The notes below the pieces were generated by a model, which was given only the letters and a program-made list of their open reading frames with translations, searched no databases and was not told where the DNA came from. A DNA stretch of 64,000 nucleotides. It comes from Ferruginibacter sp. Lineage in GTDB: Bacteria; Bacteroidota; Bacteroidia; Chitinophagales; Chitinophagaceae. Made by a program: the position numbers and the translations under genes. Location: the NCBI GenBank assembly GCA_016786725.1, contig JAEUVU010000020.1:186001-250000 (forward strand), given 5' to 3'. Of this stretch, positions 23,579-56,470 are shown in pieces. Every line of letters begins with the position of its first letter. Position 1 is the first letter of the stretch.

Positions 23579-23710
23579 TACCATTTAAAATATTGTTATC
23601 CCATTTTTCTGCCTGAAAATTTCTTAAAGAAGCTGCTCCTTATTTTACCTGCATCTATTTACTTTGTTGTATTTTTATAATAAGGGTGTTACCAACGCCG
23701 GTTGCATACT

Positions 23711-24967
23711 ATGTCCACGGAAAAACTTCGGCAAGAGAAAGAAAAATTTGAAGCATTGTTTCAGCATGCTTCAATGGGTATATTGGTAACCAATTCAAAA
23801 ACCGAAATTATACTGGCTAATAATTTTTTACTTGCACAGTTTGGTTATGATAATCAAGGCGAACTTGCAGGAAAAGAAATTGAGGTACTCATCCCCTCCC
23901 GTTACCATCACAAACATATACATCATACAGATGTTTACAACAAAAATCCCAAACCCAGGCCGATGGGGCTTGGCAAGGATCTGTATGCCCGTAAGAAAGA
24001 CGGGGCTGAATTTCCGGTAGAAATCAGTTTAAGCAATTATGCATTGGGTGACGAAAGGTTTACCATTGCTTTTATAATAGATATAACCACCAGGAAACAA
24101 TTTGAAGATGCCATCAAAAGGCAAAAAGAAGAGTTGGAAATTACCAATAAAAAAATTGAAGAACTGAATGACGACCTGGAAGACAAAGTTGAATTGAGAA
24201 CCAAACAACTGCAGGAAACCCTGCAGCAACTTGAAATCTCAAAAGATGAACTTACAAAAGCGTTAAGTAAAGAAAAAGAATTAAGCGATCTCAAGAGCAG
24301 GTTTGTGTCTATGGCATCGCATGAATTCCGTACGCCTTTAAGCACCATACTTTCATCTGCCTCGCTGGTTGCCAAATATGTTGAAACCGAAGAACAGGAA
24401 AAAAGAAACAAGCATATCCACCGCATAAAATCTTCGGTTAACAACCTTACCAATTTGCTGAACGAGTTTTTATCTATCGGGAAAATTGAGGATGGCAAAA
24501 TAACCGCCAACAATCTTGATTTTAATATCAAGGAAATGATCGCATCGCTTTGCAGCGAAATGGAAGGCATTGTGAGAAACGGGCAACAGATTGCATACAC
24601 ACATACCGGCGATGAAATGATTTTTTCTGACCCTGTATTATTACGTAATGTGCTTACCAATCTTTTATCCAATGCCATAAAATTTTCTGCAGAAGGCAGT
24701 ACGATTGAAGTGAACAGCCATGTTTCTAAAGATGAAATGATTTTAACTGTAAGGGACCATGGAATGGGTATTTCGCCGGAGGACCAGGAACACTTGTTTG
24801 AACGTTTTTTCAGAGGTACCAATGTAACCAATATACAGGGTACCGGGCTGGGGCTGCATATAGTAGCCCGTTATATTGAGATAATGAACGGTAAAATTGA
24901 ATATGAAAGCGAATTGGAAAAGGGTACAAAATTTATAATAACTTTATACCGGTTAGCAGAAAAATAA
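23711..24967 (+). CDS. PAS-domain sensor histidine kinase
   Basis: About 418 aa from the ATG at 23711; an in-frame TTG lies at 23702. Order: PAS domain (about 10-130, with FEALFQHASMGILVTNSK and a PAC tail FTIAFIIDITTRK), coiled coil (about 135-195), HisKA with phospho-acceptor His204 (SHEFRTPLST), and HATPase with NVLTNLLSNAIKFS, RDHGMGIS and GTGLGLHI. No transmembrane helix, so it senses a cytosolic signal. The regulator gene begins 15 bp after its stop and is the clear partner. Confidence 0.9.
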   Translation: MSTEKLRQEKEKFEALFQHASMGILVTNSKTEIILANNFLLAQFGYDNQGELAGKEIEVLIPSRYHHKHIHHTDVYNKNPKPRPMGLGKDLYARKKDGAEFPVEISLSNYALGDERFTIAFIIDITTRKQFEDAIKRQKEELEITNKKIEELNDDLEDKVELRTKQLQETLQQLEISKDELTKALSKEKELSDLKSRFVSMASHEFRTPLSTILSSASLVAKYVETEEQEKRNKHIHRIKSSVNNLTNLLNEFLSIGKIEDGKITANNLDFNIKEMIASLCSEMEGIVRNGQQIAYTHTGDEMIFSDPVLLRNVLTNLLSNAIKFSAEGSTIEVNSHVSKDEMILTVRDHGMGISPEDQEHLFERFFRGTNVTNIQGTGLGLHIVARYIEIMNGKIEYESELEKGTKFIITLYRLAEK

Positions 24968-26043: not shown

Positions 26044-26421
26044 TTAGAGTGCCGAATAAATGTATTTGTTGAACTCGTCTTTCAGTTTATTAAAATCCTT
26101 TTCAAAATATTCCATCTGGTCCTTCAGCTTTGAATGCATTTTTGCCATTTTATTATCAACTCTCCCCTCCAAATCATTTAACAACTGGTCCTGTTTATTG
26201 ATATCATGGCGCAACTCATCAATATACTCATCTTTTAAAATGAATTTATTCTGAAACTGTTCTGCCAATGCCAGAAAATCCTTATCCACTGCATGATCCA
26301 GCACTTCTGAAAGCCGGTTCTTCATAAAATAGTTTTCCTGCTTAAAAAATTCCAGTAAGCGTACCCACGCCTTATTTTCGTGGTGCAATTGTTCAGTATG
26401 GAGTATTTGTACCATTGGCAT
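26044..26421 (-). CDS. Coiled-coil protein of unknown function
   Basis: 125 aa, almost entirely alpha-helical with heptad-like hydrophobic spacing and many charges (LEGRVDNKMAKMHSKLKDQM). No signal, no membrane segment. The N-terminus (QILHTEQLHHENKAWVRLLEFF) has several His residues. A start at Met3 (26415) is also possible. Convergent with the response regulator. Its promoter carries the FNR-like site and a perfect -7 element, so it is probably part of the low-oxygen response. Confidence 0.7.
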   Translation of the reverse strand: MPMVQILHTEQLHHENKAWVRLLEFFKQENYFMKNRLSEVLDHAVDKDFLALAEQFQNKFILKDEYIDELRHDINKQDQLLNDLEGRVDNKMAKMHSKLKDQMEYFEKDFNKLKDEFNKYIYSAL

Positions 26422-26448: not shown

Positions 26449-26513
26449 CAAACTTAATTTTTTTACGATCTAAGTGTCAGAACAACCATCATTTAAAAAT
26501 CTGAGATTAATCA
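26449..26513 (-). promoter_or_regulatory. FNR-like box plus -7 element before the coiled-coil gene
   Basis: On the minus strand, a box TGATTAATCTCA (26502-26513; centre 26507.5) precedes a perfect -7 TAAGTTTG (26456-26449). The centre-to-first-T distance is 51.5 bp. The box overlaps the stop of the upstream TauE/SafE gene. The predicted transcript starts about 22 bases before the ATG at 26421. Confidence 0.7.
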
Positions 26514-27226
26514 GGTTTTGCACAACAACCATGTACTTTTACTTTTTCAGCATTCATCTTTGGGCTTACATAAGGAATGCCAAGCCCCATACCTCTTAAT
26601 ATCAGCAAACAGGCCATCAGCGCCATCATATACGGGTAAAGCTGCCTTATTTTTTGCCTGAGTTGCAACCCCACATAGTTCCCGAAAAAAGCAACACTCC
26701 ACATCACCGGTAGTGTTCCTAACCCAAAAGCAGCCATAAATAAAATACTGCTCATTGCATTTCCTGTACCGATAGCGCCTGCAACCGCCATATATACCAG
26801 GCCACATGGCAACAGCCCGTTCAATAACCCGATTATAAAAAGCGACCGGTTGTTTTTTTGTGTAAACAAACGTGCCAGGGCCGATCTTAATCTGCTGAAT
26901 GCCCCATTGGTGTAACTGGCAGCCGTATGCTGCATTTTAAATTTTTTGGGCATTAAAATAAATATCAGGATCACCGCACCGGTTGCTATAGATAACCATT
27001 GCTGAAAGCCAAACAGGGCTGCCGTTTGGCCTATTAACCCAAATATTAAACCGAAAACAGCATAGGTTACAATACGGCCGGCATTATATAAAAAGGCGCC
27101 CACAACTTTTGATGCCATACTGTTATTGTTAAGCGGCAGGGCAAATGCCAGCGGGCCACACATACCCACACAGTGAAAACTGCCAACAATACCGATCATA
27201 AAAGCCACCAAAAACAACTGTGCCAT
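26507..27226 (-). CDS. TauE/SafE-type membrane protein of the cbb3 locus
   Basis: 239 aa with about six membrane helices. The N-terminus MAQLFLVAFMIGIVGSFHCVGMCGP contains the HCVGMCGP motif typical of the UPF0721/SafE proteins found beside ccoGH in Bacteroidota. The C-terminus has HGCCAKP. The paired Cys and His residues point to metal (probably copper) handling for oxidase assembly, although copper import is not proven. Last gene of the cco operon, one base after ccoH. Confidence 0.8.
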   Translation of the reverse strand: MAQLFLVAFMIGIVGSFHCVGMCGPLAFALPLNNNSMASKVVGAFLYNAGRIVTYAVFGLIFGLIGQTAALFGFQQWLSIATGAVILIFILMPKKFKMQHTAASYTNGAFSRLRSALARLFTQKNNRSLFIIGLLNGLLPCGLVYMAVAGAIGTGNAMSSILFMAAFGLGTLPVMWSVAFFGNYVGLQLRQKIRQLYPYMMALMACLLILRGMGLGIPYVSPKMNAEKVKVHGCCAKPD

Positions 27227-27658
27227 TTATATAAATATTTTCTTTTCAAAATAATAGGTAATGCCATCGTGCTGCCAGTTCAAATGCAATTCATACGCCC
27301 CGCCGGCTGTGGCCGGAATGGGTATCTGCAGATGTTCATCAAGAACTGTAAAGCTCTTTTTAATATCTTTCCTTTCGTCTGAAGGGCAATACAATACTGC
27401 TTCTCCGCTCAGCTTTTTGCCGGCAAAATCCTTTGGAAAAGACAGTATCAGTAAATTATCCTTAATACTGTATTCAACCGGGGCAGATAAAGCCGAAACC
27501 CTTTTCATTTCATCTATCTTTTCCTGGTATCTAAGTTCTTTGGCATAATAATCTTTTGTAACCAAATCGGTTGTTTGAGATGATGACTTAAAAACCATAA
27601 ATACAATCCCCAATACAAAGGCTGCATACACGATCAATATTTTTGTTCCCCAGTTCAT
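27227..27658 (-). CDS. ccoH: FixH/CcoH-like cbb3 oxidase assembly protein
   Basis: 143 aa. One N-terminal membrane helix (WGTKILIVYAAFVLGIVFMV) is followed by a periplasmic beta-domain with KDYYAKELRYQEKIDEMKR, a FixH hallmark. It helps mature the cbb3 oxidase. It sits between ccoG (11-base gap) and the TauE/SafE gene. Confidence 0.85.
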   Translation of the reverse strand: MNWGTKILIVYAAFVLGIVFMVFKSSSQTTDLVTKDYYAKELRYQEKIDEMKRVSALSAPVEYSIKDNLLILSFPKDFAGKKLSGEAVLYCPSDERKDIKKSFTVLDEHLQIPIPATAGGAYELHLNWQHDGITYYFEKKIFI

Positions 27659-27669: not shown

Positions 27670-29151
27670 TTAGTTATATACTTCGGGGCCGATAAACTTG
27701 GCCTTGATTGTTTTAATTTTTTTATTGTCTTCAAATACCCCAATTTTTACTTCTGTCTTCCAGTTTTTGATATCTTCCTTTTTCAGTTTCACAAAAAACT
27801 GCAGGTGCGAATAATCTCCTTTTTTAACGGTAAGCCCGTTGCTGCCAACGGTTTCAATTTCGCCGGGCAGGTTTTCCAGCCGCAGGCTAAAGTCAATATC
27901 ATTATGCGTTTTATTGGCAATTTTTAAATTGTAGAGGTTGCTCAGGCGGCCATCCGGCAGCGTGGTATAGGTCATACCCGAGGTCCGCATCAGCGTTACA
28001 TCCAGGTCGGTACGGCTTGCCAGTAAAAATACCAGCAGCGAAAGCAGAAGCATTAATACTGCAGAATAGGCTTTTATCCTCCGGTTAAGCACCAGTTTTA
28101 CACCTTTGGTAATACTATTTTCAGATGCATACCGGATGAGGCCTTTGGGCTTATCAACCTTAAGCATAATATCGTCACAGGCATCAATACAGGCTGTGCA
28201 GTTTACACACTCCAGCTGTGTACCGTTGCGGATATCAATGCCGGTAGGGCAAACCCTTACGCAGGCAAAACAATCAATACAATCGCCCTGCCGGGTGTAT
28301 TCTTCAAATTTTGCAGCTATGTTTTTGCAGGCACCGTCTTCTTTACAGTCGGTACATTTGCAATCATGGTCTTCCTCTTTTTTAAGCTTGCCCCTGGGTT
28401 CGCCCCGTTTATGATCGTAAGCAACCACTATCGAATTCTTATCAAGCAAAACACCCTGCAGCCTGCCATAAGGACAAACTACCAGGCAAACCTGCTCCCT
28501 GAACCACCAGTAAACAAAAAAGAAAACAGTTGTAAAAACCAGTAATGAAATGAATGTACCTACGTGGGCCGAAGGATGGGTAATATACCCGATCAGTTCA
28601 TCCATACTGATAAGATAGGCCAGAAAAAAATTGGCTATCAAAAATGAGATGGCGAAAAAAACAATAAACTTGATTGTCCGTTTCCTGATCTTCTCCCCGT
28701 TCCAGGGCATGGCCCTGAGTTTTTTCTGCTGGGTAAAATCACCGTCAATCCAGTATTCTATTTTACGGAAAACCATTTCCATAAAAATAGTCTGGGGGCA
28801 GGCCCAGCCACAAAAAATGCGGCCAAACACCACCGTAAACAGGATGACAAAAACCATGAACGTAAGAAACCCTATTGCAAAAATGAAAAAATCCTGCGGC
28901 CAGAAAGTAACGCCAAAAAATATAAACTTACGCTCCAGTACATTAAACATGAACAAGGGGGCGCCATTTACCTTAATGAAAGGAAGCGTAAAAAAGATGA
29001 CCAGGTATGCGATGCTGAACCAGGTTCTTAAATTATATAGTTTACCCTTTGGCTTTTTGGGGGTAATATAATTTCTTTTACCCTCCTTTGTTATGGTGGA
29101 TATCGAATCTCTGAAAGATTCTTCATGAATTATGTCAATAGTTTCTGCCAT
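27670..29151 (-). CDS. ccoG: CcoG/FixG-like ferredoxin-type oxidase assembly protein
   Basis: 493 aa. The N half has four to five membrane helices, including FGRIFCGWACPQTIFMEMVF. Two 4Fe-4S clusters follow: CIDCFACVRVCP and CVNCTACIDACD, about residues 270-330. A preceding Cys-rich loop CKCTDCKEDGACK is notable. The C-terminus is an Ig-like periplasmic domain. CcoG proteins reduce copper for delivery to the CcoN haem-copper site. Two bases separate it from ccoP. Confidence 0.92.
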   Translation of the reverse strand: MAETIDIIHEESFRDSISTITKEGKRNYITPKKPKGKLYNLRTWFSIAYLVIFFTLPFIKVNGAPLFMFNVLERKFIFFGVTFWPQDFFIFAIGFLTFMVFVILFTVVFGRIFCGWACPQTIFMEMVFRKIEYWIDGDFTQQKKLRAMPWNGEKIRKRTIKFIVFFAISFLIANFFLAYLISMDELIGYITHPSAHVGTFISLLVFTTVFFFVYWWFREQVCLVVCPYGRLQGVLLDKNSIVVAYDHKRGEPRGKLKKEEDHDCKCTDCKEDGACKNIAAKFEEYTRQGDCIDCFACVRVCPTGIDIRNGTQLECVNCTACIDACDDIMLKVDKPKGLIRYASENSITKGVKLVLNRRIKAYSAVLMLLLSLLVFLLASRTDLDVTLMRTSGMTYTTLPDGRLSNLYNLKIANKTHNDIDFSLRLENLPGEIETVGSNGLTVKKGDYSHLQFFVKLKKEDIKNWKTEVKIGVFEDNKKIKTIKAKFIGPEVYN

Positions 29152-29152
29152 T

Positions 29153-30340
29153 CTATTTTTTAGTTACCAGGGTATCGGGTTTTACAGCATTACCTGAGTC
29201 AGGCATTACAGCTTTCGCCGTATCGGCCACTGCTTTTTCCTCTGTATAAAATTCGCCCTGCGGCGCTTTTGGCACTGCGGGTTTGGTTCCTTTAAGTGAT
29301 TTGATATAGCTTGCCAGGTAGCTCATTTCTTTGGGTGTAAATGTGCTGCTCCACGACTGCATTCCCTTATCGGGATAGCCAACTTTAATGGTATTATAAA
29401 TATCATTTAGTGAGCCTTTGTGCAGCCAGTAATCGTCTGTTAAATTGGGCCCGACACTACCGCCACCATCTTTTAAATGGCAGGCTACGCAGTTTGTTTC
29501 AAAAAGGTTTTTGCCGGCCGTAATGCCTGCTGCATCTGCCATCGGCACATTTTTTTCATCTATCTTGTCTTTGTTTGTGGCTTCATATGCTTCTTTGGCA
29601 ATTCTTGCCTTTTCCATTTCTGCATTATACTCCTGGGTTGGGTTAAGCCCGATGCCCATTACATGATAATTAAGCAGGTAAACAAATGCAACGGCAATGG
29701 TTACATAAAAACCATACTTCCACCAGGGCGGCAGCGAGTTATCAAGTTCTTTAATACCATCATAATCATGATCAAGCAGCACATCTGCTTCTTTTTCAAC
29801 AGGCACAGCTTTGGTAAATATTTTTTTATCCAGGCTGCCCCACCAGGTTGCCAGCGCCGATTTGCTTTTTACACCCGCAGCTTTTTCAGGTAACAATTCT
29901 GTGTACATCCTGCGGATGGAAAAGCCAAGAAAAAGTATTACGATCACTTCTGTTAACAGAACAGTCAAAAAGAAATAATAAGTGTTTTCTGAAAGGCCCC
30001 CGTAATTAGGTATTTCTTTTACAGCATTGGCAGCATCCTGCGCCCAGCTAACCTGCGATAAGAGCGAAAGCCCCAGCAGCATAATTACAGGCAGTGTTTT
30101 TGACATCTTGCTTTTTTCGAGCAATTGCCGCCCCATGGCTGTTAATACCTGGCCCATACCCCATATCACAAAAGCCAGCACCACAATCATGATCACCAGT
30201 AAGGTAGCAAGCTGGTTGTAGCTCGACTGTACAGGCTGTGCGGCAGCAGGTGTGGTTGTTTGCGCCATTAATGCGGAAACAGTAAACAAGGAAAGTACCG
30301 TTAATACTGTTTTATATTTTATAGATTTTAAGAATAGCAT
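29153..30340 (-). CDS. ccoP: cbb3-type cytochrome c oxidase subunit III (CcoP-like)
   Basis: 395 aa. The N-terminus has a signal and membrane helices (about 20-130). One more helix is near residue 215 (WWKYGFYVTIAVAFVYLLNY). The C-terminal domain carries one haem c motif, CVACH (about residue 290), with axial Met in GMQSWSSTFTP. Canonical proteobacterial CcoP has two haems; only one is visible here, which is common in Bacteroidota. Part of the operon ccoS-NO-Q-P-G-H. Confidence 0.9.
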   Translation of the reverse strand: MLFLKSIKYKTVLTVLSLFTVSALMAQTTTPAAAQPVQSSYNQLATLLVIMIVVLAFVIWGMGQVLTAMGRQLLEKSKMSKTLPVIMLLGLSLLSQVSWAQDAANAVKEIPNYGGLSENTYYFFLTVLLTEVIVILFLGFSIRRMYTELLPEKAAGVKSKSALATWWGSLDKKIFTKAVPVEKEADVLLDHDYDGIKELDNSLPPWWKYGFYVTIAVAFVYLLNYHVMGIGLNPTQEYNAEMEKARIAKEAYEATNKDKIDEKNVPMADAAGITAGKNLFETNCVACHLKDGGGSVGPNLTDDYWLHKGSLNDIYNTIKVGYPDKGMQSWSSTFTPKEMSYLASYIKSLKGTKPAVPKAPQGEFYTEEKAVADTAKAVMPDSGNAVKPDTLVTKK

Positions 30341-30545: not shown

Positions 30546-32681
30546 TTAGTTATTTATTGTGGCTGTTTTACTGTTGCTGATATCTTTTCCCAGGCGCTGC
30601 AGGTAGGCAATCAATGCTATCACCTCCCTGTTGGCAGGCACTTCAATACCTTCTATTTTTAAATTGAGCCGCACAGCATTTGCCTGTGACATCAGATCCT
30701 GATTGGCAAATTTTTCATACTCCTTGTCGTAAGGCACACCCAGTGAGCGCATGGCTTTTATTTTTGCTGCAGTTGATGCTGTATCAATGCTTTGATCAAT
30801 GAGGAAAGGATATGCCGGCATAATTGATCCTTCGCTCATAGAAGATGGCTCCCTGAAATGGCGGAAATGCCAGCCATCAGATTTTTTAAGATTGCCTGTA
30901 CCTTCCCTGGCCAGATCAGGCCCGGTACGTTTACTACCCCACAAAAACGGTTTATCATAAACAAACTCCCCGGCTTTTGAATATTCGCCATAGCGTTCGG
31001 TTTCGCTTCTGAAGGGCCTTATCATCTGGGAGTGGCATACATAACAGCCTTCTCTTACATACACATCCCTGCCCTGCAGTTCAAGCGGGGTGTAAGGTTT
31101 TACACTGCTGATGGTAGGTACATTTGATTTGATCATAAATGTGGGTACCAGTTCAATGATACCGCCGATCAAAATCACTACCAGGCTTACTACCATAAAG
31201 CGTATTGGCTTTCTTTCAATAATCCTGTGCCAGTGCTCGCCGCTGTGTTTTACATATTCTTTTACCATTGGCGCCGCTTCTGCTTCTTCATTGGCAACCA
31301 GTTTTCCGCTCTTAACAGTTTTATAAATATTATAGAACATGATGAGTACGCCAACCAGGTACATGGTACCACCCAATGAACGCATGGCGTAGAAGGGTTT
31401 CATGTAAGTAACCGTTTCGAGGAAGGTATATTTTAACTGGCCTGCGGCTGTAAACTGTTTCCACATGAGGCTTTGCTGAATACCGGCCCAGTACATAGGA
31501 ATGGCCCAGAATAAAATACCCAGCGTTGCCAGCCAGAAGTGGTTGCTGGCAAGTTTTTTTGAATAAAGCTGGGTTTTAAATATCCTTGGTATCAGCCAGT
31601 ACAACACACCAAAAGTGAGCATACCGTTCCAGCCAAGGGCGCCCACATGCACGTGCGCCACCACCCAGTCGGTATAATGCGAAATGGCGCTTACACTTTT
31701 TAAAGAAAGCATTGGCCCTTCAAAAGTTGCCATACCATAGGCGGTAACGGCAACCACCATAAATTTCAGGATAACATCATCCCTCACCCTGTCCCAGGCG
31801 CCACGTAAAGTAAGCAGGCCGTTTATCATACCTCCCCAGCTTGGGAAGATGAGCATAAAAGAAAATACCACACCCAGCGATTGCGCCCAGTTAGGCAGCG
31901 AGGTGTACAACAGGTGATGCGGGCCGGCCCAGATGTATAAAAATATCAACGACCAGAAGTGGATAATAGAAAGCCTGTAAGAGTAAACAGGACGGTTGGC
32001 CGCTTTTGGCATAAAGTAATACATAAGCCCCAGGTACGGCGTGGTTAAAAAGAAAGCAACCGCATTGTGGCCATACCACCATTGCACCAATGCATCCTGC
32101 ACGCCAGAATACCAGCTGTAACTTTTAAGCCAGCTGTAAGGCAATTGCCCGGAACGTACAATATGCAAAACTGCAACGGTTACAAAAGTGGCTATGTAAA
32201 ACCAGATGGCAACATACAGGTGCTTTTCCCTTCTCTTGATAATAGTGCCAAACATATTCCAGCCAAATACCACCCAGATGATGGTTATTGCCAGGTCAAT
32301 CGGCCAGATGAGTTCTGCGTATTCGGCACCCTGTGTTAATCCTACCGGCAGTGTAATGGCCGCTGCAACAATGATGAGCTGCCATCCCCAGAAATGGATA
32401 TTGCTGAGTTTATCGCTGAACATCCTGGTCTTGCACAGGCGCTGTAATGAATAGTAAACTCCCATAAAAATTCCATTACCCACAAAAGCAAAGATCACTG
32501 CATTGGTATGCAGCGGACGAAGCCGCCCGAAAGACCCATACTGGGTAATATTAAGTTGCGGAAAAACCAGCTGTAATGCTATCCACAGGCCGGCCAGCAT
32601 ACCAACGGCGCCCCACAAAACGGTAGCATAAGCAAAGTTTTTAACTATCCTGTTGTCGTAATAAAATTTTTCTACCTGCAT
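30546..32681 (-). CDS. ccoNO: Fused cbb3 oxidase subunits I and II (CcoN-CcoO)
   Basis: 711 aa. Residues 1-about 480 are CcoN, with haem and copper ligands in RPLHTNAVIFAF, WWYGHNAVAFF, GPHHLLYT and VAHVHVGALGWNG. After a linker and one membrane anchor, residues about 520-700 form CcoO with haem c motif CYVCHSQM and axial Met in MPAYPFL. The fusion is the usual Bacteroidota arrangement. It reduces O2 to water with high affinity and pumps protons. The gene starts six bases after ccoS. Confidence 0.95.
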   Translation of the reverse strand: MQVEKFYYDNRIVKNFAYATVLWGAVGMLAGLWIALQLVFPQLNITQYGSFGRLRPLHTNAVIFAFVGNGIFMGVYYSLQRLCKTRMFSDKLSNIHFWGWQLIIVAAAITLPVGLTQGAEYAELIWPIDLAITIIWVVFGWNMFGTIIKRREKHLYVAIWFYIATFVTVAVLHIVRSGQLPYSWLKSYSWYSGVQDALVQWWYGHNAVAFFLTTPYLGLMYYFMPKAANRPVYSYRLSIIHFWSLIFLYIWAGPHHLLYTSLPNWAQSLGVVFSFMLIFPSWGGMINGLLTLRGAWDRVRDDVILKFMVVAVTAYGMATFEGPMLSLKSVSAISHYTDWVVAHVHVGALGWNGMLTFGVLYWLIPRIFKTQLYSKKLASNHFWLATLGILFWAIPMYWAGIQQSLMWKQFTAAGQLKYTFLETVTYMKPFYAMRSLGGTMYLVGVLIMFYNIYKTVKSGKLVANEEAEAAPMVKEYVKHSGEHWHRIIERKPIRFMVVSLVVILIGGIIELVPTFMIKSNVPTISSVKPYTPLELQGRDVYVREGCYVCHSQMIRPFRSETERYGEYSKAGEFVYDKPFLWGSKRTGPDLAREGTGNLKKSDGWHFRHFREPSSMSEGSIMPAYPFLIDQSIDTASTAAKIKAMRSLGVPYDKEYEKFANQDLMSQANAVRLNLKIEGIEVPANREVIALIAYLQRLGKDISNSKTATINN

Positions 32682-32687: not shown

Positions 32688-32894
32688 TTATTTGGTTTGG
32701 GTTATTGATTTAGAAACAGAGGTTGAGGTTAAGTTTGAGGAAGCAGTCTTTTTCTTTTCATCGTCAAATAAGATGCGGATCGAGGGGGTATAGTCATCAT
32801 CAAACTGGCCCTTGTTGGCGCTCCACAAAAAGGCAGTTAAAAAACCTCCTGCCACCAGGATGCTGATTCCTATTAAAACGAATAATGCGCTCAA
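32688..32894 (-). CDS. ccoS: CcoS-like cbb3 oxidase assembly protein
   Basis: 68 aa, read from a TTG at 32894 (MSALFVLIGISILV). No in-frame ATG gives the family start. One membrane helix is followed by the CcoS signature WSANKGQFDDDYTPSIRILFDDE. It is needed for haem/copper loading of CcoN. First gene of the cbb3 operon. The predicted transcript begins about 19 bases upstream, after a perfect -7 element. Confidence 0.9.
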   Translation of the reverse strand: MSALFVLIGISILVAGGFLTAFLWSANKGQFDDDYTPSIRILFDDEKKKTASSNLTSTSVSKSITQTK

Positions 32895-32918: not shown

Positions 32919-32983
32919 CAAAAATAGCAGGGGGCGTATTACTATACACTGATGAGTGTCAAACGTAAATATGATATTAATCA
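32919..32983 (-). promoter_or_regulatory. Double FNR-like boxes plus perfect -7 element before the cbb3 operon
   Basis: The minus-strand -7 element is TATTTTTG (32926-32919). One box is TGATATTAATCA (32972-32983, centre 32977.5, 51.5 bp from the first T). A second is TGATGAGTGTCA (32950-32961, centre 32955.5, 29.5 bp). The two boxes are exactly 22 bp apart. Confidence 0.8.
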
Positions 32984-32991: not shown

Positions 32992-35403
32992 TTAAAGGCC
33001 TTTGTTACGGGCAGCAAAAGAAGAATACAGGCTTACAAAAAGCACAATGCTTATGCTGCTTGCAGGCATGAGGATAGCAGCGATCATGGGCGAAAGGATG
33101 CCTTGCACGGCAAATGATAAACCAACAATATTATACAGGATTGATAGGATAAAACTGGCAGTTACTATTTTTTTACCCGCTTTTGCATAGCTGATGAACT
33201 TATCAAGCAGCGACACATTGCATGCATCCAGTATAGCATCGCTTGCAGGTGAGAATTGCGCCGAATTTTCAGACACGGCAATACCCACCTGGCTTTGCAT
33301 GAGGGCGCCGGCATCATTCAATCCATCGCCCAGCATAAGTACATTGCTGCCTTTAAGCTGCAGGCTTTTAATAAAATCTAGTTTTTGCTGGGGAGACTGG
33401 TTAAACCTAACCGGTGTATCATTACCAAATATCTTTTTGATGTTCACATTTTCAGAATCGTTATCGCCTGATAAAACATACCGGCTTATATCATGCTTTT
33501 TTAAATCTCCGGCCATTTGCTGTACACCCGGCCTGTATTGGTTTTTTACACTGAATTTGCCAACGTGGATTTTATCAAGCACCACATGCACCGATGTACC
33601 CGTATCCTGTGTTACAAACTGATCATCTGCTTTAATAAAACCCGCCGAGCCCATTTTTACCGGCACCTCCTCTACTACTGCATCAAAGCCTTTTCCGGTA
33701 TATTCCTTAAACCTGTTTACGGTTAGCAACTGGCCCGGCTGCTCTGTAATGGATGCAGCAATGAGCCTGCTTAGCGGATGGGATGATTGCCGGGCAACAC
33801 TTCTGATCATAACAAACTGCTGCTGCGAAAGTGGCAAACCTTCATACTCAACTGCGGCAGTATTGGTTTGGGTAAGCGTGCCGGTTTTGTCAAATACAAC
33901 CGTATTTATTTTGGCCAGCGCTTCAATTACCGACGCATTTTTAAGGTAGAGTTTATTGCGGCCAAAAACACGCAGCATATTGCCGTATGTAAATGTGGCC
34001 GAAAGCAGCAACGAACAGGGGCAGGCAACAATGAGCACCGATGTTACCGCCGGTAAAATTTTTGAAACATCAACAATTGACCAGAAGATCAATGCGCCTG
34101 CCGCAATGGATAAAAGTATAATGGTAAAATACCGGCTCCAGGGATGTATGTAGGATTTTTCCTCGTTTTTTTTGTTCACAAATATGTCGTTGTTCCAGAG
34201 CTGGGTAATATAGCTCTGGCTTACTTCTTTAATAACTTCCAGTTCAATGGCTCCTCCCATTTGCTTGCCCCCGGCATAAATCAGCTCTCCTTTACGCTTT
34301 TCAACTTCAGCATTCTCACCACTTACAAAACTATAATCAATACTGGCCGAAGGGCTCATCAGCACTGCATCTGCCGGTATCATCTCTTCGTGCCGAACCA
34401 TGATGCGGTTGCCTTTTTGCAGTTGCGTGACCGGGATATTTTTTTCTTCGCCGCCGGCAATTACCGTAACCCCAAGCGGAAAATAAGAACGGTAATCACG
34501 GTCGAATGAAAATGAATCGTAGGTTTTGTTTTGAAACCAGCGGCCCACCAGCATGAAGAAAACAATGCCGGTGCCCGAATCAAGATAACCGGCGCCATGC
34601 CCCCCTATGATCTCGTAGTAGCTTCTTGCAAAAGTTACAATAATGGCCAGTGCAATAGGTGCATCAATATTTAAAAACTTTTGCCGAAGGCCTTTCCAGG
34701 CCGTACTAAAGATATCTGCTGAACTGAAAAATAAAACCGGCAGCGATAATCCGAAAATAAGCCAGTTGAATGTTTGTTTCAAAACAGCCTCATCAATATT
34801 ACCCGAAGAAAAATATTCCGGAAAACTCAGCATCATAATATTGGAAAAGCAAAAACCGGCAACACCTATTTTATAGATCTGCCTGCGGCTGTAAGATGAT
34901 GTTTTCTTTTGCGTGGTATCCTTTAAGCTGATATAAGGTTCGTAACCGATAAAGGCCAGCAGCTCTACCACTTTACGCAGGCTGGTTTCCTGCGGGTTAA
35001 ACACAATAAAAATCTCTTTGCTCTGAAAATTTACCTGCGATTGTTTTACACCCGGTTCTATCCGGTGCAGGTTTTCGAGCAGGTAAATGCACGAAGAGCA
35101 GTGCATTTGCGGGATGGAGAATGTAATATTGATCTGCTCTGCACTTTGAAAGCGGATGAGCTTTTGAATGGTGGTTTCATCATCTAAGTAGGCAAACCGT
35201 TCGGCCAGGAATTTACCTTTGGCTTTTAAGCCGGGGTTTTTATCCAGGTCATAATAATTGCAGAGGTTATTTTCATTCAGTAAAAGGTAAACCTGTTTGC
35301 AACCCTGGCAGCAGAAATGTTTTTCTTCTGCTAAAATGGAAGTATCATCGCAAACATCGCCGCAATGAAAACAATTAACCGGTATGTGATTGGCTGTATT
35401 GAT
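32992..35403 (-). CDS. ccoI: Copper-transporting P-type ATPase CcoI, with a non-canonical start
   Basis: A frame starting at the first ATG (35106) would give 704 aa but begins inside the HMA motif (MHCSSC). The same frame stays open to 35406 and encodes about 99 more residues with the CcoI-type N-terminus: CFHCGDVC and HFCCQGCKQVY. No ATG, GTG or TTG lies before these Cys pairs, so an ATC (35403) or ATA (35385) start is proposed, giving about 803 aa. Other motifs are CPC (ACPCSLLL), DKTGTLT and GDGLNDAGAL. It exports copper for cbb3 assembly. Confidence 0.85.
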   Translation of the reverse strand: MNTANHIPVNCFHCGDVCDDTSILAEEKHFCCQGCKQVYLLLNENNLCNYYDLDKNPGLKAKGKFLAERFAYLDDETTIQKLIRFQSAEQINITFSIPQMHCSSCIYLLENLHRIEPGVKQSQVNFQSKEIFIVFNPQETSLRKVVELLAFIGYEPYISLKDTTQKKTSSYSRRQIYKIGVAGFCFSNIMMLSFPEYFSSGNIDEAVLKQTFNWLIFGLSLPVLFFSSADIFSTAWKGLRQKFLNIDAPIALAIIVTFARSYYEIIGGHGAGYLDSGTGIVFFMLVGRWFQNKTYDSFSFDRDYRSYFPLGVTVIAGGEEKNIPVTQLQKGNRIMVRHEEMIPADAVLMSPSASIDYSFVSGENAEVEKRKGELIYAGGKQMGGAIELEVIKEVSQSYITQLWNNDIFVNKKNEEKSYIHPWSRYFTIILLSIAAGALIFWSIVDVSKILPAVTSVLIVACPCSLLLSATFTYGNMLRVFGRNKLYLKNASVIEALAKINTVVFDKTGTLTQTNTAAVEYEGLPLSQQQFVMIRSVARQSSHPLSRLIAASITEQPGQLLTVNRFKEYTGKGFDAVVEEVPVKMGSAGFIKADDQFVTQDTGTSVHVVLDKIHVGKFSVKNQYRPGVQQMAGDLKKHDISRYVLSGDNDSENVNIKKIFGNDTPVRFNQSPQQKLDFIKSLQLKGSNVLMLGDGLNDAGALMQSQVGIAVSENSAQFSPASDAILDACNVSLLDKFISYAKAGKKIVTASFILSILYNIVGLSFAVQGILSPMIAAILMPASSISIVLFVSLYSSFAARNKGL

Positions 35404-35468: not shown

Positions 35469-35663
35469 CTACTGAACAGAATTTGCCGAACATGTGTTCA
35501 GCCCAAATATTTTATACAATGGGCAAAAAGACAAAAGGCCGGTAACCAGAGGCACAATGGCAAGCAAACCCCACCAGCTTTTTACATAAAAACCAACGGC
35601 AGCAATTACAATTGCCAGAAAGAGCCTGATCCCTTTGTCAATATTGCCCATGTTGCATTTCAT
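35469..35663 (-). CDS. DUF2892-type small membrane protein
   Basis: 64 aa. It begins MGNIDKGIRLFLAIVIAAVG with a second helix (WWGLLAIVPLVTGLLSF) and ends CPLYKIFGLNTC, the layout of YgaP C-terminal/DUF2892 proteins. The family often sits beside rhodanese or redox genes. The two Cys at the end may bind metal or sulfur. It is 65 bp upstream of the proposed ccoI start and under an FNR-like promoter, so a role in oxidase or copper physiology is possible. Confidence 0.8.
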   Translation of the reverse strand: MKCNMGNIDKGIRLFLAIVIAAVGFYVKSWWGLLAIVPLVTGLLSFCPLYKIFGLNTCSANSVQ

Positions 35664-35680: not shown

Positions 35681-35745
35681 CAAAAATTGTTATTGCCAAA
35701 GTATTGTTCAATGATGGCTGTCAAATAAAAACATGAGTTTAATCA
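35681..35745 (-). promoter_or_regulatory. Double FNR-like boxes plus -7 element before DUF2892-ccoI
   Basis: The minus-strand -7 element is AATTTTTG (35688-35681; one mismatch to TAnnTTTG). The boxes are TGATTAAACTCA (35734-35745, centre 35739.5, 51.5 bp) and TGACAGCCATCA (35712-35723, centre 35717.5, 29.5 bp). Same two spacings as the ccoS promoter. Confidence 0.75.
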
Positions 35746-38098: not shown

Positions 38099-41000
38099 AT
38101 GAGTAAAAAAATTTTAGGACTGGATTTGGGAACGAATAGTATTGGGTGGGCTTTGATTAATAAAGAAGAGGAGAAAATTCTTGGAATGGGAAGCAGGATT
38201 ATTCCGATGGGAGCCGAATTAAGCAAATTTGAGCAAGGGCAAGCACAAACAAAAAATGCAAACAGAAGAATTGCCAGAGGAGCAAGAAAACTCAACAAAA
38301 GATATAAACAAAGGCGCAATAAATTGATATATGTTTTGCAACAATTGGCAATGTCGCCAGAGCAAATAAAATTGTCAAAGCCTTTTACCAATCCTTTGAA
38401 ATTAGATAAAGTTTCAATTCTTCCTATCGCTAAAAATCAAAAACAATATTCTGCACTTGATTTATTAGAGCTTCGGGTAAAAGCATTGACTATACCCATT
38501 ACTTTAAAAGAACTGGGCAAAATAATATACTTGTTTAACCAGTTGCGTGGCTATGCAGGTGGGGGTAATGAACCTGAAAAAGATAATGATATTGAAGAAG
38601 AAAAAGATAATGACGAAATAAAAAGAAAGGAAAGCTATGTGGCTTTCGGAAAAGTCTTGTCGCTTTCCGAGCCTGAAAAAGTCACTTTCAAAAACAAAGA
38701 ACTTAAAAAATATAAAGTTTCTGTAGAAACGGAAGATGGTGTTATAGAGGGAGATACTTATTTAGATGTTCTGAAAATTGGAGAGTCTTTTGAGCTACTT
38801 GTAAATATTACTGTTTCAAAAAAACATGGAGAAACAATTGTTTTTAAATTACCTAACAAAACAAGTTGGCGTAAGAAAATGGAAAATTTGGAAAAGGAGC
38901 TAACCGAATTATCCAGAGAAAAAGGCAGAGAAATTTATTTATCAGAATACTTTCTTTCTATTTTAAAAGAAAACCGTTGGGTGAGAATCAGAAACAATGT
39001 AGTGCTTCGTTCCCGTTATCAGTCAGAGTTTGATAAAATATGGAAAACACAAAGTGAAAACACTGAAAGTGAATTGTACACTGTGTTACAAAATCTCTCA
39101 CGAGAAAAGTTTTCTGATATTCTCAAATTTATTTTCCCTGGAACAAAGGAAACGCAAGAAAAATACCGGCAAGCAGGGTTTGACAAAGGGCTTTTTCATC
39201 TTGTCAGAAACCAAATAATCTATTATCAAAGAGATTTAAAAGACCAGAGCAATCTCATTTCAGATTGCCGTTTTGAGAGAGGAGAAAAGGCTATTGCCAA
39301 AAGTCATCCTGTATTTCAAGAGTTTAAAATTTGGGAACAAATTAATAAGCTGACCATAAATACAAAAACAGAGGATGGTATAAATCGAAAAGGAGAACTT
39401 AAATATAAGTACGTTGACAGACCGATTCCTGCTTCTTTAAAAGAATGGCTATTTAATGAGCTACAAGAGAAAAAAGAAATAGGATTTAGTACCGTATTTA
39501 ATAAATTAAAAAAAGAATATAGCTTGAAAGATGGGATAGATTTCTTGAATGGGATGAATCCAAAAGCAAAATTGAAAGGAGATGAAACCAAACAATTACT
39601 TAAAAAGGCAATAGGAGAAAATCTATGGAATGAACTTGGCCTGGCAGAGAAAGAACGTCAAATTGAGTTATGGAATATTATATATAATGCAAAAGGCAAT
39701 GAATATGATTTGGAAAGCGAGCGCACATCAAAGGTGTTGAGGTTCGTTAAAGACCACATACAATTTATTGAAAATGCCGAGCAAATAGCAGTTCAAATAA
39801 GCAAGATAAAGTTCAGCAGAAACTACGCCGCTTTAAGTTTAAAAGCGATTGAAAAAATATTACCGCTTGTAAGAAGCGGAAAGTATTTTGAAAGTAACTT
39901 ATCTGACAGCCTTAAGGAGAAAATTATCAAATTACTGAACGAAAATGTAAGTGACCCATTTGAAAAAGCAGCACAAGAATATCTGGAAACAAATGTGGAG
40001 GTCTTGGCAGAAGGTGGAATTATAAATGCTTATGCAACCATATTGGTTTACGACAAACACACTGCAAAAGAATATGGAGAAAAAGAACGCATTAATCATT
40101 ATCAGAAAATCAGGCGATTGCCACAGGGAGAACTAAGAAATCCGCTTGTAGAGCAGCTGATTAGCGAAGCCTTGATGGTTGTAAAAGATATCTGGAAACA
40201 GTACGGAAAGCCTGATGAAATAAGATTAGAATTAGCCCGTGAATTGAAAAACAATGCTGACAGGAGAGCAAAAATTTACAAATCAAATAATGCTAATCAA
40301 AAGGCAAATGAAGATGTTAAAAACCATTTAATTGAACTTAAAGAAGAGTTAACACTTGCCAATATTGAAAAGTACAAACTTTGGCTTTCGCAGGAAAATC
40401 TTGGTGATGAATATGTAAAACAATATAAAGATCCTTCAAAATCGGAAATTGAAAAAATGAAATTATGGCGGGAGCAAGGACATGTTTCTGCATATACAGG
40501 GCAGCCAATTCCCTTATCTGAATTGTTTAACAAAGAGCGTTACGATATAGACCACATCATTCCGCAATCACGCTATTTTGACGATTCGTTCGCTAACAAA
40601 GTAATTTGTGAGAAGGCAATTAATAACGAAAAGAGTAACCGGACTGCAATGGAATACTTCGAAATTGGTTCTGAAACCCCATCTGTGTTTTCAAAAGAAG
40701 ATTTCATTGATCATGTAAATAAACAATTTGAAGGGCAAAAGCGAAAAAATTTATTAGCTACCAAAGTGCCTGAAGACCCAGTAGCAAGACAGATGAAAGA
40801 AACACAGTATATCTCTGTGAGAGTAAAAGAAGAACTGAATAAAATTGTTGGTAATGAAAATGTAAAGACTACTACAGGTGGCGTTACTGACTATTTGCGA
40901 AATCAATGGGGCCTTACGGACAAGTTTAAAGAAATTTTAAAAAGCCGTTATGAAAAAGCGCAACCATTACTTGCTGTAATGGAATATGAAAATTATGTAA

Positions 41001-42382
41001 AGGTATTTGCAAAGAAAAAAAAGGAGTATGAAGATAAAGGTTTACCATTTACTGATATTGAATTAAATGAAGAACAGGTTAAAAAATCATTCAACAACAA
41101 CTTTTTTCAAAAAAAAAATAATAAAGTCATCATTAAAGGCTGGAGTAAGCGTATAGACCACCGGCACCATGCTATTGATGCCCTTGTTATTGCCTGCACA
41201 GAACCGGCACATGTAAAACGCTTAAATGATTTAAATAAGGAGTTGCAAAAGTGGCTGGATGAGCATAAAAAAGAGATATTGCCTGATTTTGAAGGAAGTC
41301 CAAGCGAATTGTTAGATGAAATCCTGAATTTTGATGAAAAGAAAAGGGAAATAATTTTTAAACAGATTGAGAAATTTAAAGCCATTGATATACCTTGGAT
41401 AGGCTTCCCAGATGAAGCCGAACAGGAGATTCAAAAAATTATCATTTCGCAAAAGCCGAAAGATAAACTTTTGATTCAACTGAATAATAGCGGGCAGTTT
41501 CAAATTAAGATCAGAGGGCAATTGCATGAAGAAACCTTATATGGGAAAAGCCAGGGTGTAGAAACATATACTGTCCCATTAACAAAATTAGCAGATATTG
41601 ATAAAGTAATTGTAAATCCTTATCTACGAAATGTTATTTCAGAGCATATAAAAGAATTTCCCAACAAAAAAGAAGCGTTTACCGCAGAAGCAATTTTAGC
41701 ATTGAATAAAAAGTTATCTGAGAAAAAAAATAAGAAAGATGAAACAGCACCTCATACTCCGATTTCATCTATAAAAGTATTTTACAGAGACCCGGCTAAA
41801 GTTAAAAAGAAAAAAGGAGAAGAAATAATTGAAGATACTTTACAAAAGTTAGATAGAAGCAAGGCATTTAATGAATCGCTGTATGTAAAAACGGGTGATA
41901 ATTATCTACTTGCAGTTATGCAGAAGGATGGTGCAAGAGTTTTTGACGTTGTTACTTTTTTTGATGCAGCTAATTTATTGAAAGACGAGTTTAATAAAAT
42001 CTTTGATAAAAAATCTTTTAATAAAGAAGCCATTTTCAAAAAATATTTTGAAGAAAAGAATAAAGCTAAATTATTATTTACGCTGAAAAAAGGCGATCCC
42101 GTTTACATGCCTAGTGAAGGAGAAGAAATGGTAATTGACACTGAAAGTCCGCTTTACAATAAATTTTGGAACGACAAAAATGCAAGAAGTAAGAATGTTC
42201 ATTATGTGACCCAATGCGGAAAGCAATCCTACTTTATAAACAATAGAATTGCTGATACAATAGTGAGAGGCAAAGAATATGGTTCACAGAATGCTTATGA
42301 AATCATTAATGGTAAATCAATAAAACATCATTGTATTAAATTAAATATTGATCGTTTAGGAAATATAAACACTTCAAAATGA
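38099..42382 (+). CDS. cas9: Cas9 nuclease, type II-C
   Basis: 1427 aa, at the large end of II-C enzymes. RuvC-I: Asp9 (LGLDLGTNSIGW). Arg-rich bridge helix: about 50-80 (NANRRIARGARKLNKRYKQR). RuvC-II: Glu711 (LELAREL). HNH: Asp818/His819 (YDIDHIIPQS) with Asn833 and Asn842. RuvC-III: His1024 and Asp1027 (HHAIDAL). All catalytic residues are present, so it should cut both strands. A charged linker and beta-rich insert (about 160-260) lies in the recognition lobe. Its codons are visibly more A-rich than cas1. Its stop overlaps the cas1 start (ATGA). It uses the divergent tracrRNA just upstream. Confidence 0.97.
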   Translation: MSKKILGLDLGTNSIGWALINKEEEKILGMGSRIIPMGAELSKFEQGQAQTKNANRRIARGARKLNKRYKQRRNKLIYVLQQLAMSPEQIKLSKPFTNPLKLDKVSILPIAKNQKQYSALDLLELRVKALTIPITLKELGKIIYLFNQLRGYAGGGNEPEKDNDIEEEKDNDEIKRKESYVAFGKVLSLSEPEKVTFKNKELKKYKVSVETEDGVIEGDTYLDVLKIGESFELLVNITVSKKHGETIVFKLPNKTSWRKKMENLEKELTELSREKGREIYLSEYFLSILKENRWVRIRNNVVLRSRYQSEFDKIWKTQSENTESELYTVLQNLSREKFSDILKFIFPGTKETQEKYRQAGFDKGLFHLVRNQIIYYQRDLKDQSNLISDCRFERGEKAIAKSHPVFQEFKIWEQINKLTINTKTEDGINRKGELKYKYVDRPIPASLKEWLFNELQEKKEIGFSTVFNKLKKEYSLKDGIDFLNGMNPKAKLKGDETKQLLKKAIGENLWNELGLAEKERQIELWNIIYNAKGNEYDLESERTSKVLRFVKDHIQFIENAEQIAVQISKIKFSRNYAALSLKAIEKILPLVRSGKYFESNLSDSLKEKIIKLLNENVSDPFEKAAQEYLETNVEVLAEGGIINAYATILVYDKHTAKEYGEKERINHYQKIRRLPQGELRNPLVEQLISEALMVVKDIWKQYGKPDEIRLELARELKNNADRRAKIYKSNNANQKANEDVKNHLIELKEELTLANIEKYKLWLSQENLGDEYVKQYKDPSKSEIEKMKLWREQGHVSAYTGQPIPLSELFNKERYDIDHIIPQSRYFDDSFANKVICEKAINNEKSNRTAMEYFEIGSETPSVFSKEDFIDHVNKQFEGQKRKNLLATKVPEDPVARQMKETQYISVRVKEELNKIVGNENVKTTTGGVTDYLRNQWGLTDKFKEILKSRYEKAQPLLAVMEYENYVKVFAKKKKEYEDKGLPFTDIELNEEQVKKSFNNNFFQKKNNKVIIKGWSKRIDHRHHAIDALVIACTEPAHVKRLNDLNKELQKWLDEHKKEILPDFEGSPSELLDEILNFDEKKREIIFKQIEKFKAIDIPWIGFPDEAEQEIQKIIISQKPKDKLLIQLNNSGQFQIKIRGQLHEETLYGKSQGVETYTVPLTKLADIDKVIVNPYLRNVISEHIKEFPNKKEAFTAEAILALNKKLSEKKNKKDETAPHTPISSIKVFYRDPAKVKKKKGEEIIEDTLQKLDRSKAFNESLYVKTGDNYLLAVMQKDGARVFDVVTFFDAANLLKDEFNKIFDKKSFNKEAIFKKYFEEKNKAKLLFTLKKGDPVYMPSEGEEMVIDTESPLYNKFWNDKNARSKNVHYVTQCGKQSYFINNRIADTIVRGKEYGSQNAYEIINGKSIKHHCIKLNIDRLGNINTSK

Positions 42383-43299
42383 TCAAACGCACCCTCTACT
42401 TCGGCAACCCTGCTTATCTTAAAACAAAAGATGAACAGTTGATTATAGTATTGCCTGTAGAGATAGTGGGTGGCCAGCCTTTACCAGAAGAAACGAGGAC
42501 AGTGCCGATTGAAGATATTGGCGTGCTAATTATTGACCACCAGCAGATAACCATTACACAGGCTTTGATAACCAAACTGCTTGCAAACAATGTGGCTTTA
42601 ATAACCTGCGATAATACCCACCACCCTACCGGCCTGCTGCTGAATTTAGACGGCAATACTTTGCAGAGCGCCAAATTTCAGGCTCAGGTGGATGCCAGTG
42701 TGCCATTAAAAAAACAGTTGTGGCAACAAACTGTGGCTGCTAAAATAAGCAACCAGGCGGCCATGCTTGAAAGCATAAGGGTGCCTGCCAAAAACCTGCG
42801 TAACTGGGCGGCAGAGGTTAAAAGCGGCGACAGTGATAACCACGAAGCCATTGCGGCTGCTTATTACTGGAAAAACCTTTTTCCCGGTTTTTTAGATTTT
42901 AAGAGATACCGGGAGGGACCGCCGCCCAATAATTTACTGAATTATGGCTATGCCATATTAAGAGCAGTGGTTGCCCGGAGCATTGTTGCAAGCGGCCTGT
43001 TGCCTACGCTGGGCATATTTCACAAAAATCAATACAACGCTTACTGTTTAGCTGATGATATTATGGAGCCTTACCGGCCTTTTGTAGATAAAGCTGTTGT
43101 AAACATCGTTAACCTTAACGGAAAGTTTCTGGAGCTTACGCCGGGCATGAAAAAAGACCTGCTGAATGTGCCCGCTATGGATGTTATGATCAACGAAGAG
43201 AAAAGCCCGCTGATGGTGGCGGTGCAAAAGACTACTGCTTCGCTGGCCAAATGTTTTGAGGGAAAGCAGCGGAAGATATTGTACCCGGTGATGGTGTGA
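42379..43299 (+). CDS. cas1: Cas1 integrase, type II
   Basis: 306 aa. The start ATG overlaps the cas9 stop by four bases. The N-terminal beta-domain begins MIKRTLYFGNPAYLKTKDEQ. The catalytic core carries Glu in NHEAIAAAYYW, His in LGIFHKNQYNAYCLADDIME and acidic DDIMEPYRP, the metal site for spacer integration. Base composition is closer to the host genes than cas9. It should work with Cas2, but the cas2 gene is displaced by 771 bp. Confidence 0.95.
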   Translation: MIKRTLYFGNPAYLKTKDEQLIIVLPVEIVGGQPLPEETRTVPIEDIGVLIIDHQQITITQALITKLLANNVALITCDNTHHPTGLLLNLDGNTLQSAKFQAQVDASVPLKKQLWQQTVAAKISNQAAMLESIRVPAKNLRNWAAEVKSGDSDNHEAIAAAYYWKNLFPGFLDFKRYREGPPPNNLLNYGYAILRAVVARSIVASGLLPTLGIFHKNQYNAYCLADDIMEPYRPFVDKAVVNIVNLNGKFLELTPGMKKDLLNVPAMDVMINEEKSPLMVAVQKTTASLAKCFEGKQRKILYPVMV

Positions 43300-43330
43300 A
43301 TGCCGGGCTTTGTACAAATGTAAAAGTGCG

Positions 43331-44065
43331 GCTGCCGTTCCGACGAAGGAGGAACCTGCCAGGGGATGCTACAGGCTGCTCTGCAATATTGTTTGCTAAA
43401 ATAAAGCAGCGCCATTTTTTATAACCGGAAGCGTGCTGAATAGCAATATGGCACAGATGGGCAGATCCCTCCTTCGTCGGGATGACAGCTTTGTTTGAGC
43501 ATTGGAACAATGATGAGCATTTATAACGCAAGCAGTTTTTATACAAATGAAAATACCTGGCGGACATAATTATTATGTTTATATAGTAACCAATAAAAAC
43601 AAAACTGTTTTATATACGGGCGTTACCAATGACCTGTACAGGCGCCTGAAAGAACATGAAGAAAATTCGAAACCTTTCCGGCACAAATCTTTTGCAGGGC
43701 AATACAATGCTTACTTTCTTTTGTATTATGAGCGGTTTGAGCAGGTTGAGTTTGCAATTATGAGAGAAAAAGAGATAAAGGGATGGAGAAGGGAGAAAAA
43801 AGAGGCCCTGATAAATACGCTGAACCCCGAATGGAAGTTTTTGAATGATGAGATATAGGTGCAAAATGGGCTTATTGGCAGGAAGTTTTTTTGGGTGATG
43901 GAAACAAACAATGGGCAGATCCCTCGTTCCTCGGGATGACAGCAGCACCGGGCAGTTGCGGGCAGATGAACTGTTGTAACATCTATGGGCAGATTCCTCC
44001 TTCGTCGGAATGACAGCTATACCGGGCGGTGGCAGGAGGCCCCTCACTTCGCTCGGGGTGACAGC
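43331..44065. repeat. Five copies of a ~30-bp dispersed repeat around the GIY-YIG gene
   Basis: Copies: 43331-43360 (inverted), 43459-43489, 43913-43943, 43987-44017 and a diverged copy 44040-44065. The unit reads GGGCAGATCCCTCCTTCGTC then GGGATGACAGC with small changes. One direct copy is just upstream and three are downstream of the GIY-YIG gene; all lie between cas1 and cas2. Confidence 0.85.
43547..43858 (+). CDS. GIY-YIG nuclease-family protein inserted between cas1 and cas2
   Basis: 103 aa, single-domain GIY-YIG endonuclease of the YhbQ/UPF0213 type. The motif appears as YYVYIVTNKNKTVLYTGVTN, followed by the Arg of LYRRLKEH and Asn/Glu near NTLNPEWKF. All core active-site residues look present. 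Such genes occur as stand-alone orphans in Bacteroidota. It is not a known Cas protein and is flanked by the repeats at 43331-44065, so it looks like an insertion. Confidence 0.88.
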   Translation: MKIPGGHNYYVYIVTNKNKTVLYTGVTNDLYRRLKEHEENSKPFRHKSFAGQYNAYFLLYYERFEQVEFAIMREKEIKGWRREKKEALINTLNPEWKFLNDEI

Positions 44066-44070
44066 AATGA

Positions 44071-44412
<342 letters not shown>

Positions 44413-44478
44413 TAAAACCCGCAGGAATTAAAAAATGAAAGAATAAACCATTTTTTAATCCTAAAAAATGTCTAAAAT

Positions 44479-44515
44479 ACACAACAGGAAAGGCTTTTGG
44501 CGATTCCTGTTGTGT
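44479..44515. other. Inverted repeat at the cas2-proximal array junction
   Basis: ACACAACAGGAA (44479-44490) and its exact reverse complement (44504-44515) are separated by 13 bases. The right arm covers the first seven bases of repeat 1. Read on the minus strand (crRNA direction) the hairpin is followed by ATTTTAGACATTTTTT, so it may end the crRNA transcript; alternatively it marks the integration site. Confidence 0.6.
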
Positions 44516-53774: not shown

Positions 53775-53804
53775 TTTAGTTGATTTTATATAAAGGGTTA
53801 AATA

Positions 53805-54284: not shown

Positions 54285-54316
54285 TTTTTTTTATTTTGAT
54301 TTGTAATTTAACGGCA

Positions 54317-54359
54317 CAAGATTACCAGCTATCGGCAATATATTTTATGCGTTCAGTCA
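54317..54359 (-). promoter_or_regulatory. Candidate nos promoter with degenerate FNR-like box
   Basis: Minus-strand -7 TAATCTTG (54324-54317, one mismatch). A degenerate box TGACTGAACGCA (54359-54348, one mismatch in TGA-N6-TCA) is centred 29.5 bp upstream. The predicted transcript starts about 27 bases before the cytochrome gene. Confidence 0.4.
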
Positions 54360-54449
54360 TAACCTGTTAGAAACTTTAAAGCACCGGAAAAATCTCCAAA
54401 ACCCTTAACGGCAAGGGCTTACAGAATTGGCCTGTTTACCTCAAAAGCA

Positions 54450-54514: not shown

Positions 54515-54535
54515 ACCAAACAGAAAATTACTGTT

Positions 54536-55132: not shown

Positions 55133-55135
55133 TTG

Positions 55136-55178: not shown

Positions 55179-55193
55179 CTTTAAATAGATATT

Positions 55194-56457: not shown

Positions 56458-56470
56458 TAAAAAAATAATC

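Follow-up and report, generated by a model that had tools for sequence, protein, structure and literature searches.

Two adjoining CRP/FNR-type boxes precede both halves of the cbb3 oxidase system in this Ferruginibacter genome, and this tandem operator, with its distal box as anchor, probably defines a low-oxygen cbb3 regulon that would be driven by a receiver-CRP fusion protein switched on by a FixL-like kinase. The proposal builds on the geometry of the promoters, its conservation, the linkage of the regulator genes, their domain make-up and the conserved phosphorylation and FixL-histidine residues, all of which are evident from the sequences.

Geometry of the cbb3 promoters

The stretch of DNA analysed (the window; 64,000 nucleotides, C9:186001-250000 within a 3.87-Mb genome) harbours a cco operon nearest to those of Chitinophagaceae MAGs, its ccoNO sharing 92% identity with that of locus L001. 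The genes of this region are:

35469-35663, minus strand: YgaP-like transmembrane gene, first in the ccoI-side transcript, between the ccoI-side promoter and ccoI
32992-35403, minus strand: ccoI, with a possible ATC start at 35403
32688-32894, minus strand: ccoS (FixS, PF03597), with a TTG start ~20 nt past the predicted transcription start
30546-32681, minus strand: ccoNO fusion
Downstream of ccoNO, in order: ccoQ, ccoP (29153-30340), ccoG (27670-29151), a ccoH-like gene (27227-27658) and the gene of a DsbD_2 protein (26507-27226)

YgaP-like genes similar to that at 35469-35663 also occur near cco in loci L003, L025, L063 and L073. From the upstream in-frame stop to the conserved CxHC motif of ccoI, no ATG, GTG or TTG was found; an ATC codon (35400-35403, minus strand) lies ten codons ahead of the Cys and is also present in the ccoI of L004 (Ferruginibacter), which suggests a conserved non-standard start codon.

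Read on the minus strand from 32983 to 32919, the ccoS-ccoNO promoter is TGATTAATATCA-N10-TGACACTCATCA-N23-TATTTTTG. The box centres (32977.5 and 32955.5) are one 22-bp step apart, with distances of 51.5 and 29.5 bp to the initial T of the -7 box, exactly as the preliminary description had placed them. The ccoI-side promoter (minus strand, 35745 to 35681), for which the same double arrangement had been claimed, is TGATTAAACTCA-N10-TGACAGCCATCA-N23-AATTTTTG, with identical geometry and one mismatch to TAnnTTTG in its -7 box. Both cbb3 promoters are thus of the form TGA-N6-TCA / N10 / TGA-N6-TCA / N23 / -7 box, and two further modules of this layout were present in the window:

32972-32983, minus strand: distal box TGATTAATATCA of the ccoS-ccoNO promoter, centre about -63.5
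32950-32961, minus strand: proximal box TGACACTCATCA of the ccoS-ccoNO promoter, centre about -41.5
32919-32926, minus strand: -7 box TATTTTTG of the ccoS-ccoNO promoter; transcription start predicted at about 32914 by TAnnTTTG at -12 to -5 (PMC9723704)
35734-35745, minus strand: distal box TGATTAAACTCA of the ccoI-side promoter
35712-35723, minus strand: proximal box TGACAGCCATCA of the ccoI-side promoter
35681-35688, minus strand: -7 box AATTTTTG of the ccoI-side promoter, one mismatch
26449-26513, minus strand: third module, upstream of the 125-aa protein gene 26044-26421; distal box TGATTAATCTCA intact, proximal box degenerate, -7 box TAAGTTTG perfect
54450-54514, plus strand: module upstream of the second CRP/FNR-type regulator, beside nosZ; distal box intact, proximal box with one mismatch, -7 box perfect

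The 125-aa protein adjoins the regulator pair introduced below and matched no Pfam family; homologues with modules occur in L002 and L024.

In mapped flavobacterial promoters, TAnnTTTG occupies -12 to -5 (PMC9723704). Applied to the cbb3 promoters, this rule predicts box centres at -41.5 and -63.5, the former being where the Fnr boxes of Sphingopyxis ccoN, hemN2 and uspA are located (PMC7713065). No -33 TTG was found in any of 103 modules. The anatomy predicted by the flavobacterial rule is therefore that of a class II activator promoter plus an adjoining second dimer.

Abundance and conservation of the module

The twin-box arrangement is far from chance. Single TGA-N6-TCA boxes were mildly (twofold) enriched in the window (32 seen vs 15.8 expected), and TTGA-N6-TCAA with up to one mismatch was not (50 seen vs 51.9 expected). 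Among exact box pairs of the whole genome, the N10 gap occurred five times and the other 30 gaps of N0-N30 six times in total (Poisson P about 2e-6 for N10, before correction for 31 gaps); two of the five N10 pairs were the cco promoters. When gap and -7 offset were both left free in 59 genomes of the order, 41 of 71 matches fell into one cell, gap 10 with offset 23. The exact module occurred 41 times in these genomes, 11 times directly upstream of ccoS, vs 0 for the reversed pattern; across the phylum 40 occurrences were found in 22 of 296 genomes, again vs 0.

Conservation was assessed in 80 orthologous cco loci, with the module scored on 18 fixed bases; these loci are related and some derive from MAGs, and their counts are not independent events. 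Within two mismatches the module was matched in 58/80 ccoN promoters (52/80 within one), while each of the other spacings from 16 to 31 bp was found in at most four of the 80 loci and shuffled sequences yielded zero module matches. On the ccoI side, 26 of 65 loci carried it. Because both boxes and the 22-bp step are kept at these frequencies, the earlier view that one double-site logic tunes both halves of the oxidase system is upheld. Promoters with only one or neither box, the outcome named beforehand as contrary to that view, do occur, but in a minority only: just the proximal box was retained in L021, L035, L061 and L065, and neither box in a few loci.

The boxes had also been called FNR-like. 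Their core TGAY-N4-RTCA agrees with this label, but the full FNR site TTGAT-N4-ATCAA does not: the consensus is [A/C]TGAY-N4-RTCA[T/G], and in the distal box TGA is preceded by A or C in 86% and by T in 5%. Absence of the module from Sphingobacteriaceae was considered and rejected, as there it was found between ccoS and ccoN rather than before ccoS, with unchanged internal spacing. Judged by these placements, the module moves as a unit.

Predicted regulon

Modules found near cco or by whole-genome search precede ccoS/N, ccoI, ccoG, hemN and the genes of ferrochelatase, universal stress proteins, Hsp20, cytochrome c and a conserved coiled-coil-like protein, several of these names being provisional readings of the sequence by eye; in Sphingobacteriaceae a module also precedes a D-lactate dehydrogenase-like gene that adjoins the regulator. 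The predicted targets fit low-oxygen physiology.

Several neighbouring loci deserve mention. Within 25 kb of cco lies a nitrogen-oxide cluster (51780-57193) comprising a Sec-dependent (clade II) nosZ with accessory genes, a CRP/FNR-type regulator, an NnrS-like membrane protein and a ScdA/hemerythrin protein. Upstream of the ric/ScdA gene are two palindromic boxes 20 bp apart (56415-56446), the first ~-41.5 from a one-mismatch -7 box and the second nearer the start; the second may repress. A universal-stress-type gene (45849-46673) and a fasciclin-like gene (46921-47496) are divergent, with TGA-N6-TCA boxes in between, one of them at offset 23 from TAGATTTA. A CRISPR locus (38099-45767), its genes named by eye, encodes Cas9 (1427 aa) and a Cas1-like protein (42379-43299), and its array (44508-45767) has 17 copies of a 47-nt repeat with spacers of about 30 nt.

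Candidate regulator and sensor kinase

The genome encodes four CRP-family proteins. Domain content and linkage point to the first protein of the following pair, and not to FNR, as most likely the regulator in this genome:

24983-26041, plus strand: receiver-CRP/FNR fusion, proposed activator
23702-24967, plus strand: PAS histidine kinase with a FixL-like PAS domain, proposed to sense oxygen and phosphorylate the fusion

The fusion matched Response_reg (97.7 bits) and Pfam cNMP_binding and HTH_Crp_2. Its receiver residues D52, T82 and K104 were invariant in 20 orthologues, as expected of a phosphorylatable receiver, and so were E317 and R321 of the HTH, in a CRP fold with an E..xxR recognition helix. 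Scores against the curated models of FNR (NF008365; 74.7 bits, cut-off 228) and FixK (NF050806; 70.1 bits, cut-off 300) fell well short, and the protein was therefore filed as neither. Its N-terminus is the receiver domain, with no FNR-type cysteine cluster for a 4Fe-4S centre. An AlphaFold2 model (mean pLDDT 80.7, pTM 0.39) showed receiver, linker, beta-roll, long helix and winged HTH, and its CRP half matched CRP and FNR structures; the model supports the two halves, but their relative placement is unreliable, and so it offers no structural argument for the 22 bp.

Both the fusion and the PAS kinase are linked to cco across the group. Of 60 long loci, 25 had the fusion within the examined flank of cco, and in 21 of these 25 the kinase adjoined it. 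Eight other long loci had a stand-alone FNR-like protein instead, mostly with an N-terminal cysteine cluster; the cysteine-containing form is encoded beside cco in, among others, Chitinophaga and Pontibacter (L068, L069, L074, L075). We rejected the idea that the tandem requires the receiver domain: loci with stand-alone FNR-like proteins carry the same tandem, and the fusion is thus not needed for it.

Recognition helix and operator covaried, although this rests on one clade split: the base flanking TGA was G in 6/52 cases where I precedes the final R of the helix (mostly A or C) vs 19/28 where S does (mostly G; P 4e-7). In the 59 genomes the exact module was present in 21/46 with a candidate regulator vs 1/13 without (P 0.011, partly confounded by cco presence); among the 40 cco genomes the figures were 21/35 vs 0/5, so that 14 of those 35 with a candidate regulator had no exact module under the strict pattern.

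For the kinase PAS domain, the best PDB match was FixL (1d06), with the haem-ligating histidine aligned, and the other leading matches were haem PAS domains as well. The histidine was kept in 25/25 kinases covering that position. The haem-pocket arginine of FixL (GIGR motif) is K in this genome and R in the Sphingobacteriaceae orthologues, whose FixL motif is almost whole. Apart from the histidine, however, the PAS domain encoded here diverges from FixL, and that histidine occurs in many PAS domains, so haem binding by the kinase is only putative.

Proposed mechanism and alternatives

We infer binding, cooperativity, activation, oxygen sensing and phosphotransfer as follows: i) when oxygen falls, the FixL-like PAS kinase would phosphorylate the receiver of the fusion and render it active, a FixL - (FixJ + FixK in one protein) pathway of a single step; ii) two regulator dimers would occupy neighbouring sites some two helical turns from each other, the proximal one at the predicted -41.5 (the class II position, which covers the missing -33 element) and the distal one at the predicted -63.5 (class I-like); iii) the distal box would be the strong anchor, bound first, and the weaker proximal box would be filled with help from the distal dimer; iv) both dimers would recruit RNA polymerase to a promoter with a good -7 box and without a -33 TTG; v) in related lineages, the stand-alone cysteine-containing FNR-like protein would act on the same operator. 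More tentatively, the microaerobic regulon of Bacteroidota might at large be run by a FixL-(FixJ/FixK fusion) system of one step that functions solely through adjoining tandem dimers at -41.5/-63.5, a promoter class of its own with the distal dimer as anchor; we regard this wider claim as plausible but somewhat doubtful.

The same tandem might be served chiefly by another CRP/FNR-family activator, such as the possibly NO- or redox-responsive one encoded beside nosZ at 54512-55132, while the fusion would run other genes or share sites. This regulator has an E..IR recognition helix too (VETVIR) and could bind the tandem, it has a distal-type module in its own upstream region, and single-box sites cluster near nos, ric and tryptophanase genes. 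But most sites in its vicinity are single boxes at the predicted -41.5, as at the NnrS-like (55194), ric (56471) and tryptophanase (57465) genes of the window, and what is linked to cco over many genomes is the fusion or the stand-alone FNR-like protein. We therefore consider this explanation unlikely.

The two boxes are unequal: hardly any variation is seen in the distal one, while the proximal one decays. The distal box was intact in 99/103 modules and the proximal in 65/103; the latter loses its upstream TGA half and keeps the promoter-side TCA half (99/103 modules). Such inequality would also suit opposed boxes, one activating and the other limiting or fine-tuning, as in the dual anaeroboxes of Rhizobium fnrN, where the activating box is at -34 and the repressing one at -2, 32 bp apart (PMC7888657). 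Here, unlike the repressing fnrN box, both predicted positions (-41.5/-63.5) are upstream, activating ones off the start site, and in lineages with the proximal box alone that box has much the same class II position, which makes opposed action rather improbable. Loss of the proximal left half in many Sphingobacteriaceae, where the distal box remains perfect, could likewise mean that a single specific dimer binds the distal box and that the proximal repeat is vestigial or contributes through its TCA half alone; since full proximal boxes are found across several families and proximal-only promoters exist, we think this improbable as well. Finally, the module is common to close relatives, but chance or shared promoter ancestry in place of a selected operator is hardly credible: boxes and -7 are fixed while the N23 spacer is unconserved and N10 only T-rich (the intervening DNA being free except for T-rich and A-rich stretches symmetrically flanking the distal box), the module has another location in Sphingobacteriaceae and turns up again at unrelated genes, and reversed-pattern controls gave none.

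Comparison with known systems

Oxygen control of the cbb3 oxidase in Bacteroidota appears little described. A search of open-access full texts, outside which most subscription journals lie, returned no account of it or of FNR/CRP control of cbb3 there, and nothing on point for receiver-CRP regulators; cbb3 is reported to be induced under oxygen limitation in F. psychrophilum, no regulator being named in the passages covered (PMC9723704). Across many Bacteroidota, adjoining boxes exactly 22 bp apart are kept, and an unusual regulator of two-component type, whose gene is a neighbour, probably operates them; with this twin-box layout and this neighbour, low-oxygen control in the phylum therefore seems wired unlike the textbook single-box design. 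Soil, water and guts are habitats in which Bacteroidota are a dominant phylum. Being fixed, 65 bp long and informative at about 18 bases, the module can be searched for and is a tool for predicting low-oxygen genes genome by genome. Moreover, the receiver-CRP fusion suggests a route by which a two-component sensor may be merged with an FNR-type activator.

E. coli-type FNR class II promoters, including Sphingopyxis ccoN, hemN2 and uspA (PMC7713065), are like those described here in the TGA-N6-TCA palindrome, in a centre at -41.5 (predicted here) and in similar kinds of targets. They differ in that the promoters here have a second adjoining box, at the predicted -63.5 and a fixed 22-bp step, a flanking base other than the T of TTGAT and a candidate regulator without an Fe-S cysteine cluster. 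In E. coli, tandem FNR/CRP promoters, artificial and natural (e.g. yfiD), bring two dimers of this family to one promoter. In contrast to these, the step here is an immediately adjacent 22 bp, and the promoter class is kept across Bacteroidota families and genes.

The rhizobial FixL-FixJ/FxkR-FixK and FnrN control of fixNOQP (PMC7888657) is alike in its haem-PAS-like kinase, receiver and CRP/FNR-type activator for cbb3 genes, which are here predicted from sequence. Rhizobial fixNOQP has a single activating anaerobox (PMC7888657). In the system proposed here, receiver and activator are in one protein, which would therefore act in one step rather than through a transcriptional cascade. The stand-alone FNR-like regulators, finally, share with the fusion the GTA-E--IR recognition helix and the tandem operator but have an N-terminal cysteine cluster where the fusion has its receiver domain; this swap on one operator offers a way to ask how oxygen sensors exchange while the operator stays.
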